From a virus: 37,618 nucleotides of DNA. The stretch is taken from positions 1-37,618 of the IMG/VR virus record IMGVR_UViG_3300007038_000002. One strand, 5' to 3'. Shown in pieces: positions 4,471 through 17,729 of the stretch; position 1 is the first letter of the stretch, and each line of letters opens with the position of its first letter. Position numbers and translations under genes: made by a program. The notes under the pieces are model-generated. The model saw only the letters and a program-made list of their open reading frames with translations, was not told the DNA's origin and made no database searches.

Positions 4471-4502
4471 CATATTGTCAGGAAATCTAACATTAAAAAC
4501 AT

Positions 4503-4531
4503 TTGGAATTGGTGCGAATAATCATTATAAT
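4503..4531 (+). promoter_or_regulatory. Strong sigma70-like promoter
   Basis: TTGGAA, a 17-base spacer, then a perfect TATAAT. The sequence TTGGAATTG at the -35 region matches the promoter at 71. It would give a leader of about 75 bases for the gene at 4615. Confidence 0.7.
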
Positions 4532-4614
4532 ATGTAATAACGAAATGAAGCAAAGCGGGGGCAAAGTGCTACCTGCAACTCTAACAAACACAAACCATAA
4601 ATCAAACTACTATT

Positions 4615-5043
4615 ATGGCTGAACAAGATCAAACACAGACAGCACAGGAAGAGCAAGCTAAGGATTCTCGAACAGGTTACGTTGAAGTAACTACTGGTTC
4701 GACTAAGCACCCAGACGCTAAGGATGCAGAGGATGGCAAAGTTGAAGCCGTTATCGGCGTGAAGGTTGGTGACAGTCTTCGAGAAGCCGTAGAAGAATAC
4801 GGTGAAGAATTTGTCTTCGACCAATATGTCCGGTCTGTGACGGTTGCTGCTCAGGGCAAAGTTCGTCGGGAACTCGACAAAGGTGTTCCAGTCAACACCG
4901 TTGAGAATGAACTTGACGATCTCGACCCAACAGAGAAGCGCACTACCGTCAAAGATCCTCAAGCACAAGCGGTTGCTGCTTGGAAGAACATGGACGAGGA
5001 GCAAAAAGCGAAGTTCCGTAATATCATGGATCAGCAAGACTAA
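4615..5043 (+). CDS. Acidic, probably abundant protein, 142 aa
   Basis: A single-gene transcription unit: the strong promoter at 4503-4531 lies upstream and a strong terminator at 5067-5107 lies downstream. Codons are unusually rich in C-ending forms compared with its neighbours (for example the stretch around 4860-4980), which suggests high expression. The protein is acidic, with a disordered first 45 residues, a helical core, and a C-terminal tail containing NMDEEQKAKFRNIM that resembles two other proteins here. It could be a DNA mimic, an ssDNA-associated protein or a host-takeover factor; none can be chosen from sequence. No SD is evident before the ATG. Confidence 0.75.
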   Translation: MAEQDQTQTAQEEQAKDSRTGYVEVTTGSTKHPDAKDAEDGKVEAVIGVKVGDSLREAVEEYGEEFVFDQYVRSVTVAAQGKVRRELDKGVPVNTVENELDDLDPTEKRTTVKDPQAQAVAAWKNMDEEQKAKFRNIMDQQD

Positions 5044-5066
5044 TCTCTTGTTGCTGGAAATACTTG

Positions 5067-5107
5067 GAGCAGGGTGTCTCTTCAGTAAGGCACCTTGCTC
5101 TTTTCTT
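5067..5107 (+). terminator. Rho-independent terminator
   Basis: GAGCAGGGTG pairs with CACCTTGCTC (ten pairs, one G-U) around a 14-base loop, followed by TTTTCTT. It ends the transcription unit of the acidic protein gene. Confidence 0.8.
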
Positions 5108-5108
5108 A

Positions 5109-5245
5109 GTCGGAGCTGAGGCAAAAGTAGTAAGTTGTGTAATATAAGAGATATCTTATAGTAGCAACAGAAGGTGTAGCCTGTGCGTGGTGAGGTCTTT
5201 AAAAACTCCACCAGACCTCCTGTAGGTTCGAATCCTACCTCCGAC
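5109..5245 (+). ncRNA. tRNA-like structured RNA, non-canonical
   Basis: A 7-bp acceptor-like stem GTCGGAG (5109-5115) with CTCCGAC (5239-5245) encloses a perfect T arm (GTAGG, TTCGAAT, CCTAC; 5222-5238) with the invariant TTC, A and C. Between them are a long hairpin (GTTGT/GCAAC, then TATAAGA-GATA-TCTTATA; 5134-5168) and a second hairpin (GAGGTCT/AGACCTC; 5192-5219). At 137 bases it is too long for a tRNA, has no normal D arm and does not encode CCA. It is also much shorter than known tmRNAs. It may be a tRNA-like decoy or regulator, a degenerate tRNA with insertions, or a copy of a host tRNA end. Confidence 0.55.
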
Positions 5246-5251
5246 TCAATC

Positions 5252-5270
5252 GAGCTGTTGTGTTCGGCTC
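5252..5270 (+). other. Hairpin downstream of the tRNA-like RNA
   Basis: GAGCTG and CGGCTC form six pairs (one G-U) around the 7-base loop TTGTGTT. It lies between the T arm and the following terminator and is probably part of the same transcript. Confidence 0.5.
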
Positions 5271-5271
5271 A

Positions 5272-5322
5272 GGGCGGACGAGATACTATCTCTGGACTAA
5301 AGGTTCCGCCCATTTATTTTAC
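5272..5322 (+). terminator. Terminator with nested hairpin
   Basis: GGGCGGA (5272-5278) pairs perfectly with TCCGCCC (5305-5311), followed by ATTTATTTT. A smaller hairpin GAGAT-ACT-ATCTC sits in the loop. It most likely ends the structured RNA transcript. Confidence 0.65.
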
Positions 5323-9045: not shown

Positions 9046-10139
9046 TACAAATACCGGAAACACTACCTGTACCGAAGCATCCAACAATGAGTACGGTGGA
9101 CTCTTCTAAAATCCAAGCCTTTCAGGACTGCCCTCGGAAGTTCTTCTTTCGGTACGTCCTAGGTTTGCAACAGGAAGGTCCGAATATTCACTTGGACTTC
9201 GGGAGCGCATGGCATGAAGCAATGGAGCATCTACTATTGAACGGCTACGGTGAGGATTCAGTAGAAGGTGCTTTCAAAAAGTTCCTAAAGATCTATAGAG
9301 AAGCCTTCCCGGATGAAATAACAGATCAGGATAAAGCACCGAAGAATCCTGAGTATGCATGGAAGGCTTTGAACCAATACGTGAAGCAGTATGAATCTGA
9401 TAACTTTGAAGTACTGTACACAGAAACTGCAGGACTTGTCCCTGTTCGTGAGGACAGACAACTTGCAGTGAAGTTGGACTCAATACTGCGTGACCGTAAC
9501 TCTGGAGAAATCCTCAGTATGGAGCACAAGACTACTGGTCGAAACTCCAGATCATGGAGAGAAAAGTGGTCAATGATGTTGCAGGTTGAGTCATATACTC
9601 ACCTATTGTACAGCCTCTATCCACCGGAAAATGTAGGCAAGGTAATGATTAACGGCTCTGTCTTCACCAAAACACGGACGTGGGATGGAGTGCGGATACC
9701 TGTCTATAAGTCACCTAAGCAGATGAATGCATTCCTTTGGAACGTAAACCACTGGATAGATCAGATTGAGTGGAACTTCCAACAACTGGCTCAGACTGAG
9801 AAAGATGATTCAGTAATGGAGGCGTTCCCAATAAACTGTGCATCTTGTTCTAAGTTTGGATGCAGTATGGGCGGAATATGCCATACCTTTCCAAACCCAA
9901 TCAAGTTCGCAGAAGATCCGCCAGCAGGATATGAAGTAGATTTTTGGGATCCTCTGCGTAAAGAGGAAGAGGCAGACAACGTGATAGAAACTGATGAAGA
10001 AGGTAAAGTATCTATCAAAGGAAAGTCTGAGGAAGAGAAGAAGCAAGACGAACAAAAGTTAGAAGAGCGTAAGAAGAAAGAGAAGGAAAAAGAAGATGAC
10101 TTCTCCTACTTACTTCCGCCGGAGGATACTGACTATTAG
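9042..10139 (+). CDS. PD-(D/E)XK nuclease with likely iron-sulfur cluster, Cas4/AddB-like, 365 aa
   Basis: RecB-family exonuclease fold. Visible are AFQDCPRKFFFRY (30s), H58 in GSAWHEA, D146 in KLDSI, the E161-x-K163 core in SMEHKTTG, and the QxxxY motif at 181-185. C30 together with C266, C269 and C274 or C280 fits the [4Fe-4S] arrangement of Cas4 and AddB nucleases. A Glu/Lys-rich tail ends the protein. It probably processes DNA ends in phage recombination or replication, alongside the ATPase and ssDNA-binding protein downstream. No CRISPR array is present, so a Cas4 adaptation role is unlikely. Confidence 0.85.
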   Translation: MIQIPETLPVPKHPTMSTVDSSKIQAFQDCPRKFFFRYVLGLQQEGPNIHLDFGSAWHEAMEHLLLNGYGEDSVEGAFKKFLKIYREAFPDEITDQDKAPKNPEYAWKALNQYVKQYESDNFEVLYTETAGLVPVREDRQLAVKLDSILRDRNSGEILSMEHKTTGRNSRSWREKWSMMLQVESYTHLLYSLYPPENVGKVMINGSVFTKTRTWDGVRIPVYKSPKQMNAFLWNVNHWIDQIEWNFQQLAQTEKDDSVMEAFPINCASCSKFGCSMGGICHTFPNPIKFAEDPPAGYEVDFWDPLRKEEEADNVIETDEEGKVSIKGKSEEEKKQDEQKLEERKKKEKEKEDDFSYLLPPEDTDY

Positions 10140-12355: not shown

Positions 12356-12497
12356 TGATTACAAAGATTACATGGTAAAGACTGATAAAAAAAGGTTTAT
12401 CGTTGAAGCTACAGACAGACACCATGCTAAACAAAGGGCTGACAGGATAGCCAAGAAACGTAATGAGAATATTAAAGAAATCTATAGACTCAAATGA
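12348..12497 (+). CDS. Hypothetical basic protein, 49 aa
   Basis: The ATG lies inside the previous gene's end and the TGA overlaps the next ATG (ATGA). The sequence FIVEATDRHHAKQRADRIAKKRNENIKEIYRL is a strand followed by a basic helix, as in small phage proteins of unknown role. Coupling at both ends supports it. Confidence 0.55.
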   Translation: MADDYKDYMVKTDKKRFIVEATDRHHAKQRADRIAKKRNENIKEIYRLK

Positions 12498-13888
12498 AGG
12501 AACGTAAACGCTTTGGTAAAATACCTATCAATAAAATCGACTTCGGAAAACGGCACAGAAAAGATTACAACAACATTGAGGAACTTGCTGCAGATATAAA
12601 AAAGATGGGACTTATAAACCCTATCACTCTGGCTGACAAGAAACAACTTGAAGATGGTAAGTTGGGCGACCTCGATGATATTGAAACAGATGATGATAAG
12701 CGATACTTGCTACTCGCTGGAGGTAGGCGTATAACAGCATGGAAGCAACATCTTATAGATGAAGAAGATTTCGGCTATGAGATTCCTTCCTACATATTTC
12801 CACGCCTGCTTACTTACTACGAGATTCGGGAACTCGAACTGATGGAGAACATCTCTCGGGAGAACCTAAACTGGCAGGAAAAATCTACCTTGACGAAAGA
12901 GCTCCATGATCTTGAACAGGAGAAGAAAGGCAAAAAAGTCAAGTCCTCTGAAGGTGGGCACGGACTCAAAGAAACAGCAGAGATGGTCGGCTCTTCTAAA
13001 TCTACAGTAAAGAATGAGGTAGACCTTGGACGTGCCCTGGAGGAAATGCCTGAACTCGGTGAAATAAAGAACAAGACCGAGGCACTTAAGGTAATGAAGG
13101 AGATTAAGAAAAACGACCAAGCTGAACGCAAGGCTAAGCGGGTTCGTAAAGAAAGAGAAGAAAAAGGAATGGATGGCATGAAAGAAGAAGTGATGGATGC
13201 CTTTGTTGAAGGTGACTTCTTCGAAAGAGCCAAGAAACTCAATGCTAATTCCTTTGACCTTATCGAGATCGACCCTCCTTATGCTATTGACTTGGCAAAC
13301 AAAAAGAAGAAAGCCAAGCATAAGACTCTCACCTATAATGAAGTCCCGGCTGATGAATACGAACACTTTATGACAAAAACATTTCATCATGCAAAGAGGT
13401 TAATCAAACCTGATGGATGGCTTGTCTGTTGGTATGGAATCTCACCGTGGCATGATATGATGGTTGAGTTAATGCGTGATGCTGGGTTTAAAACTAACGG
13501 CATCCCAATGCTTTGGGTAAAAGATAGCGGTCAAACCATGCGACCACATCATTACTTTGCCAGTTGTTATGAACCCGCTCTTTATGCCCGGGCTAGTGAA
13601 GATTCTCGCCTTAACAAGAGTGGTTCAGCCAATTATATGATACATAAGAAGGTTCCCCACTCTAAGAAGTGGCATCCTACGCAAAGACCAGTATCTCTGA
13701 TGAAAGAGGTCATTGAACGCTTTATTCCTGATGGTAAGATACTCGTACCCTTTGCTGGCTCTGGTGTCACACTCAGAACTGCGTACAACATGGGCATGAA
13801 AGCGGTAGGCTTTGATCTTGATGAAGATGCAAAGAATAAACATGATGCCTATGTAGGTGATCAGGAAGATATTAACTTCGAACTCTAA
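12494..13888 (+). CDS. ParB-like domain fused to DNA methyltransferase, 464 aa
   Basis: Residues 7-120 are a ParB N-terminal (ParB/Srx-type) domain with the AGGRR box at 75-79. Residues 156-183 form an HTH-like segment and 205-235 a basic linker. Residues 250-450 are an amino-methyltransferase with DPPY (260-263), HPTQRP (394-399) and FAGSG (420-424). The order catalytic motif before SAM-binding motif is that of beta-class N6-adenine or N4-cytosine enzymes; DPPY favours adenine. No partner restriction gene is visible, so it is an orphan enzyme, probably protecting phage DNA or regulating genes. Confidence 0.9.
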   Translation: MKERKRFGKIPINKIDFGKRHRKDYNNIEELAADIKKMGLINPITLADKKQLEDGKLGDLDDIETDDDKRYLLLAGGRRITAWKQHLIDEEDFGYEIPSYIFPRLLTYYEIRELELMENISRENLNWQEKSTLTKELHDLEQEKKGKKVKSSEGGHGLKETAEMVGSSKSTVKNEVDLGRALEEMPELGEIKNKTEALKVMKEIKKNDQAERKAKRVRKEREEKGMDGMKEEVMDAFVEGDFFERAKKLNANSFDLIEIDPPYAIDLANKKKKAKHKTLTYNEVPADEYEHFMTKTFHHAKRLIKPDGWLVCWYGISPWHDMMVELMRDAGFKTNGIPMLWVKDSGQTMRPHHYFASCYEPALYARASEDSRLNKSGSANYMIHKKVPHSKKWHPTQRPVSLMKEVIERFIPDGKILVPFAGSGVTLRTAYNMGMKAVGFDLDEDAKNKHDAYVGDQEDINFEL

Positions 13889-15060: not shown

Positions 15061-15240
15061 ATGAAGAAACTAAACCTCAACACTACACAGCTTGAATTTC
15101 TTAAACAGGCTGTAGATAAGATGATACATCCTCATAATCAGAGACGGTTGGAAACAAGGTATAGCGATCTCTCTGAGTGTGAGAAAGAAGACCTCAAAAA
15201 ACAGTTACATAAACTTGAACCTAAAAAACCACAGGTATGA
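15061..15240 (+). CDS. Hypothetical protein, 59 aa
   Basis: Small helical protein coupled to the polymerase gene by an ATGA overlap, and first gene after a repeated element. Sequence is polar and basic with no recognised family. It may be a polymerase-associated protein or simply a translational leader. Confidence 0.6.
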   Translation: MKKLNLNTTQLEFLKQAVDKMIHPHNQRRLETRYSDLSECEKEDLKKQLHKLEPKKPQV

Positions 15241-17729
15241 ACTTAGACGACATCCAAACTAAGAAAACAATAGTTCCGGGTGTAGGAAACCCTGATACTA
15301 AGATATTGGTAGTAGGTGAGGCTCCTGGGAAGAAGGAAGTACAAAAGGGCGAACCATTCGTTGGACGCTCTGGTAGACTTCTGAAATCCTTATTCTTTAG
15401 AGCCAAGCTGACTTGGGATTCCTGCTACATTACTAACGTAGTCAAGGAGAGACCACCTAAGAATGATATTAAGAAATTCATAAAACTCAAGAACAAATAC
15501 CCTAAGGTAAAGGACGAGAGTTATCACAAATACGTGGATTATCTAAAGGAGGAGATCAAAGAAGTTAATCCAAATGTTGTTCTTGCAGTAGGTAATGTAC
15601 CAATGTATGCTCTTTGTGAGAAACGTGGTATTACTTCTTGGCGTGGCTCAGTTATCGAGAGTACATTAATCCCTGGCCTGAAGGTAATACCTACGATACA
15701 CCCATCTGCTGCAATACGTAGATATATGTATCAGTATTACATCTTCAATGATATTAAACGTCTTAAGGATGAACAGTCATTTCCTGAAGTACGTATCCCA
15801 CCTTACCAGTACATAACAGATCCTACACTGGAGCAGGCTCAACAGTACTTAGCACAAGCTGCTATGAAAACTGATGAGGATGAATTCGTGGCTTGGGACA
15901 TTGAAACCAATCGAAAGCCAGACGGAAATAAGGAAGTTACGGCAATATCATTTTCTAAGGACAGAGAAACTGCAATCTGTATTCCCTTCACTGATCGTGG
16001 ACAGAACAAGTGGAGTGAGAATAATGAACTGATGCTTTGGGAACAGATAGCTGATGTACTCCAAAAGCCTTCAGTTAAGAAGATTGCACACAACAGATTC
16101 TTTGACCAACACTTCTTATTCCACCGGTATGGTATCATACCTAAGAATAATGAAGATACGATGATAGCTCATAAGATAATGAGACCTGACTTTCCAAAGA
16201 GTCTGGACTTTGTCAACTCGATGATGACTCGTATCAACTACTATGCAGACACCAGCGTGGAAGCTTGGAGATATCGTGACCAACAGCATAACTTCTGGCT
16301 TTACTCTGCAAAGGACAGTATGGTAGTATCATTAGCCTGGCCACAGATTAAAGCAGAGTTGAAAGAGAAAGGTAACTGGGAAACCTATCAAGCACAGAAC
16401 GAGATTGTCGAATCTCTGATCTTCATGACTGAACACGGTATCAAGGTTGATACTGAAGGTCTTGAGAAAAAGAACGAAGAGACTAAAAAGAAGATTAAGG
16501 AGATCGAGGAACTCTTCTATGATATGGCTGGTAGGGAGATCAACCTACGATCACACAAACAATTAAAGGAATACTTTTATGGACCGAAGGCAGATGGTAA
16601 CTTGGGACTTAAGCCCTACAAGAAAAGAAGTACAGGTAAGCCAACAACGAATAAAAGAGCATTACGACAGATGGCTAAGCCTATCCAAAGACGACCTGCT
16701 GTGCCTGAAGCGAAACTCCTCCTCAAGCATAGAAAGTTATCTAAACTTAAGGGAACGTATTATGAACTTAATTACGATGACGATGGGCGTGTCCGCTCGG
16801 CATATAATCCAGTCGGGACAAAGACAGGACGGCTCAGTAGTTCGAAGAACCTCTTCGGCACAGGGACAAATATGCAGAACCAGCCGTATGGAATGAAGGA
16901 GTTTTACCTAGTCGATGATAATTATGTTGGTTACGAGATTGACTTGGCTCAAGCCGAGAATCGTATTGTAGCCTTTTGTGCTCCAGAGCCTAAACTTATA
17001 AAGGCTTTCGAGAATGGCATTGATATCCACAAGCGTACAGCTTCATACATTTTCGGAAAACCGGAGGAAGAGATCTCACCTGAAAAAGGTTCTGCTGAAC
17101 AGTTCGGTAACGGACAACAGTCGGAACGATACTGGGGAAAGAAAGCTAATCACGCATTCAACTACGGACAAAGTGCGAAGGCGTTCTCCAAGCAGATGCA
17201 GATCTCTCAAGGTGAAGCACAGAAGATACATAATGCTTATCACAATGCCTATCCCGGTATTAAGAAGTACCATAATATGATTCAGCAACAGCTTCAGAAG
17301 AGCCGGACACTAACAAATCTGTTCGGTAGAAGATATACATTCCTTGGTCGCAATGACTACAGGTTGTATAATGAAGCCTATGCGTTCATACCTCAGTCAA
17401 CAATCGCTGATACGATAAACAGATGGGGACTTACTCCTATCTATAACAAGATGCCTGAGGTTGTGCTTCTTAACCAAGTACACGATAGTGTTGTATTTGA
17501 GATAAGTAAAGACCAGCCCTATGAGAAACACGCTGAAATTATAATAAGAATTTGTGACCACTTATCACAACCAATGAGTTGGCACGGAAGAGAATTTCGC
17601 ATACCTTGCGAAGTATTGATTTTACCTACAAACTTAATGGAAGGACCTGAAATCGAAATAAACGAGGAAATATGTCAGACAGAACTAGCGAACAAGATCG
17701 AGGAGACAGTAATCTCCCAGAATGGATAA
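15237..17729 (+). CDS. Uracil-DNA glycosylase / DNA polymerase A fusion, 830 aa
   Basis: The phage replicative polymerase. Residues 15-175 are a family-4-like uracil-DNA glycosylase domain: GEAPG (27-31), PFVGRSGRLL, YITNVVK, and IHPSA (154-158). The cysteines that bind the iron-sulfur cluster in family 4 are absent. Residues 215-375 are a 3'-5' exonuclease with DIE (221-223), NRFFD (286-290) and Y356-x3-D360. Residues 390-800 are a family A polymerase: motif A EIDLAQAENRI with D569, fingers helix R631/K635 and Y643, and motif C VHDS (748-751). The fingers residue equivalent to E. coli Phe762 is His639. SPO1-type polymerases carry a similar N-terminal domain. It ends with a 58-base overlap with the next gene. 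Confidence 0.93.
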   Translation: MNLDDIQTKKTIVPGVGNPDTKILVVGEAPGKKEVQKGEPFVGRSGRLLKSLFFRAKLTWDSCYITNVVKERPPKNDIKKFIKLKNKYPKVKDESYHKYVDYLKEEIKEVNPNVVLAVGNVPMYALCEKRGITSWRGSVIESTLIPGLKVIPTIHPSAAIRRYMYQYYIFNDIKRLKDEQSFPEVRIPPYQYITDPTLEQAQQYLAQAAMKTDEDEFVAWDIETNRKPDGNKEVTAISFSKDRETAICIPFTDRGQNKWSENNELMLWEQIADVLQKPSVKKIAHNRFFDQHFLFHRYGIIPKNNEDTMIAHKIMRPDFPKSLDFVNSMMTRINYYADTSVEAWRYRDQQHNFWLYSAKDSMVVSLAWPQIKAELKEKGNWETYQAQNEIVESLIFMTEHGIKVDTEGLEKKNEETKKKIKEIEELFYDMAGREINLRSHKQLKEYFYGPKADGNLGLKPYKKRSTGKPTTNKRALRQMAKPIQRRPAVPEAKLLLKHRKLSKLKGTYYELNYDDDGRVRSAYNPVGTKTGRLSSSKNLFGTGTNMQNQPYGMKEFYLVDDNYVGYEIDLAQAENRIVAFCAPEPKLIKAFENGIDIHKRTASYIFGKPEEEISPEKGSAEQFGNGQQSERYWGKKANHAFNYGQSAKAFSKQMQISQGEAQKIHNAYHNAYPGIKKYHNMIQQQLQKSRTLTNLFGRRYTFLGRNDYRLYNEAYAFIPQSTIADTINRWGLTPIYNKMPEVVLLNQVHDSVVFEISKDQPYEKHAEIIIRICDHLSQPMSWHGREFRIPCEVLILPTNLMEGPEIEINEEICQTELANKIEETVISQNG

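Follow-up and report, generated by a model that had tools for sequence, protein, structure and literature searches.

Plant-virus 3′ tRNA-like structures mimic tRNAs without decoding and contain pseudoknots; they form the 3′ end of RNA genomes, whereas the RNA described here has a gene of its own in a DNA phage. The species 1 RNA of phage T4 has reportedly stood unexplained since the 1970s, for some fifty years. Its function is described as unknown (PMC3014915, PMC9697503). This RNA, encoded by rnaC (band C) of the Tevenvirinae, is 139 nt long (locus L185, 1909-2047) and folds in the order acceptor, AGG/CCT helix with a long arm, hairpin and T arm with the loop TTCGAAT, with no CCA. In a comparison of nine Tevenvirinae versions, 18 pairs displayed double-sided changes, a value that supports this fold and that none of 500 shuffles attained, and in eight of the nine the acceptor carried two U.U mismatches at fixed places. 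A loop-loop pairing, TTGAYG/CRTCAA, is suggested by the same alignment; it is complete in 9/9 versions, with one compensated change only, and its score was reached by 64/500 shuffles. In fGh-Ecl01 and NM4.3 the long arm of rnaC has been replaced, and both the frame and this pairing have been kept.

The window, by which we mean the whole stretch of DNA analysed, is a 37,618-base IMG/VR phage record whose genes include a Dda-like helicase, a portal and a terminase. It also encodes a PolA fused to an N-terminal uracil-DNA-glycosylase domain (15237-17726) and a DNA methyltransferase with ParB similarity (12494-13885), and Desulfofustis phage LS06-2018-MD01 is among the relatives that carry both of these genes. 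The tRNA-like RNA and its surroundings are listed in Table 1. It is flanked upstream by a terminator-like hairpin and downstream by a terminator-like stem, and no sigma-70-type promoter match was found near it.

Table 1. Coordinates of the tRNA-like RNA of the window, its structural parts and its neighbours.
Feature	Position	Strand	Remarks
Upstream gene	4615..5043	+	142 aa, function unknown, conserved family in the window's phage family
Terminator-like hairpin GGAGCAGGGTGTC..GGCACCTTGCTC + TTTTCTT	5066..5101	+	Terminator scan; between gene 4615-5043 and the RNA
tRNA-like RNA, acceptor 5′ end to position-73 base U	5109..5246	+	138 bases
Acceptor stem 5′ strand GTCGGAG	5109..5115	+	7/7 Watson-Crick with 5239-5245
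Long bulged arm closed by AGGC (5119-5122)/GCCT (5179-5182)	5119..5182	+	MFE; possible D arm with loop insert
Inserted hairpin GTTGT/GCAAC	5134..5168	+	MFE; D-loop inserts in relatives
Inner stem TATAAGA/TCTTATA within the GTTGT/GCAAC hairpin	5143-5160	+	MFE
Hairpin GAGGTCT/AGACCTC	5192..5219	+	MFE; ends 2 nt before T stem
T arm GTAGG-TTCGAAT-CCTAC	5222..5238	+	Canonical
Acceptor stem 3′ strand CTCCGAC	5239..5245	+	Followed by U5246 (position 73) and CAA; no encoded CCA
Small trailer hairpin GAGCTG/CGGCTC	5252..5270	+	3′ of the window RNA
Terminator-like stem GGGCGGA/TCCGCCC with ATTTATTTTA tail	5272..5321	+	26-nt loop region; T-rich tail

A preliminary description of this DNA had proposed a perfect 7-bp acceptor and a canonical T arm bracketing about 105 bases of other hairpins, and these parts are indeed present: the acceptor GTCGGAG/CTCCGAC pairs at 7/7 positions, the T arm lies at 5222-5238, and the intervening segment measures 106 nt. 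The minimum free energy (MFE) of 5109-5247 is -42.7 kcal/mol (z -3.4), and none of 200 dinucleotide shuffles was equally stable. The MFE fold contains the GTTGT/GCAAC hairpin with its inner TATAAGA/TCTTATA stem, the outer AGGC/GCCT helix and the GAGGTCT/AGACCTC hairpin. In the region of the latter, alternative or crossing pairs (TGGTG/CACCA or GGTG/CACC) could form; the best crossing helix found in the window RNA was 4 bp long and not significant (z about -1.2). The trailing hairpin at 5252-5270 was borne out, as was the presence of a terminator-like stem with a T-rich tail; a terminator scan, however, did not call the stem at 5272-5321, whose loop is too long.

The RNA had also been held to be neither a tRNA nor a tmRNA, and the searches agree. 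ARAGORN returned no tRNA and no tmRNA for it, and none in intron-aware mode at the default threshold, while Rfam 15 yielded no family at the gathering threshold, tRNA and tmRNA included; below threshold, tRNA-Sec scored 15.8 bits (E 2.1). A permuted tmRNA was called by ARAGORN solely at the 50% threshold, and we rejected it. The earlier statement that there is no D arm is ambiguous: AGGC/GCCT is readable as a D stem with GTTGT..GCAAC in the D loop, where several relatives have inserts as well. With tmRNA (ssrA, RF00023) the window RNA shares tRNA-like ends and a long internal domain, but it is far too short, has no tag reading frame and lacks the G3-U70 pair.

The closest likeness in part order is to T4 rnaC. 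The two RNAs are 139 and 138 nt long and both display a 7-bp acceptor at the same position, a short AGG(C)/(G)CCT helix immediately within it, a long bulged hairpin, a linker of about 9 nt, a second hairpin separated from the T arm by 1-2 nt, a TTCGAAT T loop, no encoded CCA and a U after the acceptor. The window RNA thus follows the rnaC order of acceptor, AGG/CCT helix with long arm, hairpin and T arm, and its AGGC/GCCT arm is the topological match of the AGG/CCT arm. They differ in that rnaC bears the two U.U mismatches in its acceptor, and no counterpart of the TTGAYG/CRTCAA-type loop-loop motif was found in the window RNA. When a covariance model of the nine rnaC genes was run against the window RNA, the T arm alone scored (6.6 bits). 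The topology of the two RNAs is the same, and the covariance-model match is limited to the T arm. This relative by topology was absent from the suggestions of the preliminary description.

We gathered related phages through their terminase, exonuclease and primase (223 loci, 3.16 Mb) and scanned them for strict T arms. Twenty-nine were found on the early-gene (+) strand and none on the other; only a few of the 29 belong to ordinary tRNAs according to ARAGORN. A perfect Watson-Crick acceptor partner lay 55-300 nt upstream in 13/29 cases, versus 0 on the - strand, while the same 3.16 Mb after shuffling held four strict T arms, none with a perfect acceptor at that distance. On the early-gene strand the window RNA likewise has a perfect acceptor and a T arm around a long non-anticodon insert, and its structure is non-random. 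Comparison of the window DNA with phage records gave no match, searches for relatives through the upstream protein, the Dda helicase and an exact 14-mer gave nothing useful, and no close homologue of the RNA region was found among the sequences searched. The rnaC covariance model found its best match among the relatives at L169 4554-4712 (E 1.5). We note that this locus carries tandem tRNA-like genes (4480-4551 and 4557-4713), the first without a recognisable anticodon arm and the second with an 8-bp acceptor, a D arm, an encoded CCA and an insert of about 65 nt; ARAGORN -i calls the second a tRNA-Leu with an intron, a call that shuffled controls render uninformative.

Most of the T-arm RNAs that are not ordinary tRNAs fall into a wider phage class with a common frame: a 7-bp acceptor of any sequence, TGGCGGAATTGGTAGACGC, unrelated sequence, GCAGG-TTCGAAT-CCTGC and the acceptor 3′ strand. 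The TGGCGGAATTGGTAGACGC element is the D arm of bacterial tRNA-Leu and is present in most members, and the anticodon and variable arms are replaced by 43-230 nt of unrelated sequence. The frame is conserved, whereas nearly every phage has an inner domain of its own. Bacterial (class II) tRNA-Leu thus shares the acceptor and T arm with all of these RNAs, and the TGGCGGAATTGGTAGACGC D arm and A73 with most relatives; it differs in that the class has no anticodon arm. Position 73 is A in 69/87 members, among the matches listed. Inserts in the D loop occur in L201, L213, L240, L241, L286 and L349, and that of L201 is a hairpin (GGAAT, then TGGCAAG..CTTGCCAT as the insert, then TGGTAGACG). The acceptor compensates strongly across the class: it is paired at 7/7 positions in 94/109 RNAs among the matches listed, in which 39 acceptor sequences are represented, and the figure falls to 9% when partners are swapped; the D arm and the T core were search criteria and acceptor pairing was not. 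The variable domains are modestly structured relative to shuffles (nested mean z -0.5) and modestly enriched in H-type pseudoknots (mean z -1.03). A kissing-loop architecture was considered as a general rule and dropped, being hardly enriched (mean z -0.34). A tmRNA tag end, GCNGCNTAR, was found in none of 87 members.

The window RNA lacks the tRNA-Leu D arm TGGCGGAAT(T/A)GGTAGACGC and has U5246 rather than A at position 73; it would therefore be a divergent or convergent member. It is nearest to the members without a Leu D arm, namely those of L213 (10250), L240, L245 (two) and L306.

The pattern TGGCGGAATTGGTAGACGC-N46-76-GGTTCGAATCC was present in at least 120 viral contigs and in 9 of 11.3 million bacterial and archaeal contigs. 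All three bacterial contigs examined (L475, L476, L478) are prophage-like regions: L475 and L478 have Erf-like annealing, exonuclease and antirepressor proteins among their neighbouring genes, and L476 has a phage-type exonuclease. As far as examined, the class is confined to phages or prophages. The frame also occurs, without an overlapping annotation, in cultured phages of Leuconostoc, Weissella, Bacillus, Brochothrix and Enterococcus; the T loop of these Gram-positive phage members is TGCAAAT. Rfam made no call on the cultured-phage members and scored some metagenomic ones as tRNA. The Leu-type frame of the Weissella RNA is also matched, again without annotation, in phages of Lactobacillus plantarum and Enterococcus, for example phiJL-1 (AY236756 36568-36603) and EFDG1 (KP339049 46669-46692). 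Further cultured matches were set aside, those of Rhizobium (L487, L491), a cyanophage (L492) and Vibrio (L490) as ordinary tRNA-Leu and that of Acinetobacter (L488) as being without a T arm. The class is large and mostly unannotated, in so far as the open-access literature covers it; it may have been described earlier elsewhere.

Relatives of the gene at 4615-5043 mostly have just a terminator-like hairpin on their 3′ side, and some members of the family have an RNA gene there. In L173 an intact tRNA-Met (CAT, 2003-2075) occupies the same slot, which makes the 3′ site of this family a repeated landing place for RNA genes. In L172 (IMGVR_UViG_3300035698_010165), an RNA of about 290 nt with a terminator lies 3′ of the homologue (9120-9420); it is highly structured (z -3.2), and neither a T arm (strict scan) nor a significant Rfam match was found in it.

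Our favoured reading, with a probability of about 0.5, is a phage gene that encodes a stable, processed, non-decoding tRNA mimic or decoy; its processing, charging and decoy function we infer. Four elements lead to it: the tRNA-like ends, the missing anticodon arm, the requirements of leucyl-tRNA synthetase (LeuRS) and the use of phage tRNAs against defences. The main rival is that the tRNA frame serves solely as a maturation and stability cap, whose ends RNase P, RNase Z and the CCA enzyme trim and protect, and that the inner domain does the work as a regulatory RNA, by antisense pairing or protein binding. A conserved frame around an inner domain that varies from phage to phage is what such a cap would give, and so is the exchange of the rnaC long arm within a retained frame in fGh-Ecl01 and NM4.3. 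A pure cap, however, needs neither a near letter-for-letter tRNA-Leu D arm nor A73, and we regard this explanation as rather unlikely. That the RNA is a structured 3′ UTR resembling a tRNA end by chance gains from the fact that the T arm and acceptor amount to just 31 bases, but it is hard to reconcile with the fold z of -3.4 and with the scan of 3.16 Mb, in which neither the opposite strand nor the shuffled sequence gave a match, and it is the most improbable of the explanations considered.

Two further explanations start from a true tRNA gene. In one, a phage tRNA-Leu or another tRNA has acquired insertions and is decaying without function. Phages often carry tRNAs, and the L173 slot holds an intact one, yet decay would not keep 7/7 acceptors over 39 sequences while losing the anticodon arm alone; the exact D arm and T core are also kept, though both were search criteria. 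We consider degeneration improbable. In the other, the 18-base hairpin at 5143-5160, or other inserts, would be spliced out to leave the anticodon loop GTAAGTA. The arithmetic of the preliminary description is correct on this point, as removal of the 18 bases from GTTGT/GCAAC gives a 5-bp stem and a 7-base loop with U33, and L201 and L241 recover a textbook Leu D arm when their D-loop insert is removed. Single deletions in the window RNA did generate 44 ARAGORN matches, but 13/60 shuffles equalled this, and the intron-aware search of the unaltered RNA gave none at the default threshold. Across the class, intron-aware calls were as frequent with shuffled variable domains (80-83 of 87) as with real ones (83 of 87), with no preferred anticodon. 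To our knowledge, group I introns are the only self-splicing tRNA introns in bacteria, and the inserts are too short for them. Splicing thus appears slightly less probable still than degeneration.

For the favoured mimic or decoy, a scheme can be outlined. Transcription would enter the window RNA from upstream, and the transcript would be trimmed by host RNase P at 5109 and by RNase Z or exonucleases after 5246, and then given a CCA; since the acceptor and T arms present standard tRNA ends, RNase P cleavage, 3′ processing and CCA addition are to be expected. Its lack of an anticodon arm precludes a role as an ordinary elongator tRNA. The mimic would occupy host readers of the acceptor/T-arm end, such as EF-Tu, aminoacyl-tRNA synthetases or defence nucleases that target tRNA, and its variable arm would be adapted to the phage-host pair in question. 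Defences that cleave tRNA are countered by phage tRNAs; one of these, a tRNA-Tyr for which a decoy role has been proposed, neutralises Septu (PMC13096335). Leucylation of E. coli tRNA-Leu persists when the anticodon arm and the long variable arm are absent, and it then depends on A73 and on D-T loop contacts (PMC9976931). The Leu-type majority may thus have kept the parts that LeuRS needs (Leu D arm, A73) and replaced the arms that it does not. With U73 and no Leu D arm, leucylation is not predicted for the window RNA, to which the LeuRS step does not apply.

The phage tRNA look-alikes probably imitate tRNA to hijack or distract the tRNA-handling machinery of the infected cell. The earlier list of a tRNA mimic, a tRNA-derived regulator, an RNase P/Z substrate or an undescribed phage RNA is supported in kind, and the window RNA joins the many tRNA-like RNAs of phages that lack an anticodon arm. 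More tentatively, phages of many host groups might encode widespread, so far unannotated tRNA-Leu-derived RNAs that keep A73, the D/T-loop contacts and the acceptor, in which a fast-evolving pseudoknotted domain replaces the anticodon and variable arms. These would act as leucine-charged, non-decoding decoys for tRNA-handling enzymes or tRNA-cleaving defences, the T4 species 1 RNA and the window RNA being older or convergent forms; we hold this extended proposal to be possible.

The anatomy of T4 species 1 RNA is thus found outside the T4 group, and more than 100 Leu-type relatives exist, some of them in cultured phages. Current genome annotation misses such genes or handles them as odd tRNAs. 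Together with the rnaC-like anatomy, the Leu-type relatives in cultured phages provide a comparative set and tractable systems, and they lead to direct predictions: processing by RNase P, CCA addition, and leucylation without an anticodon.
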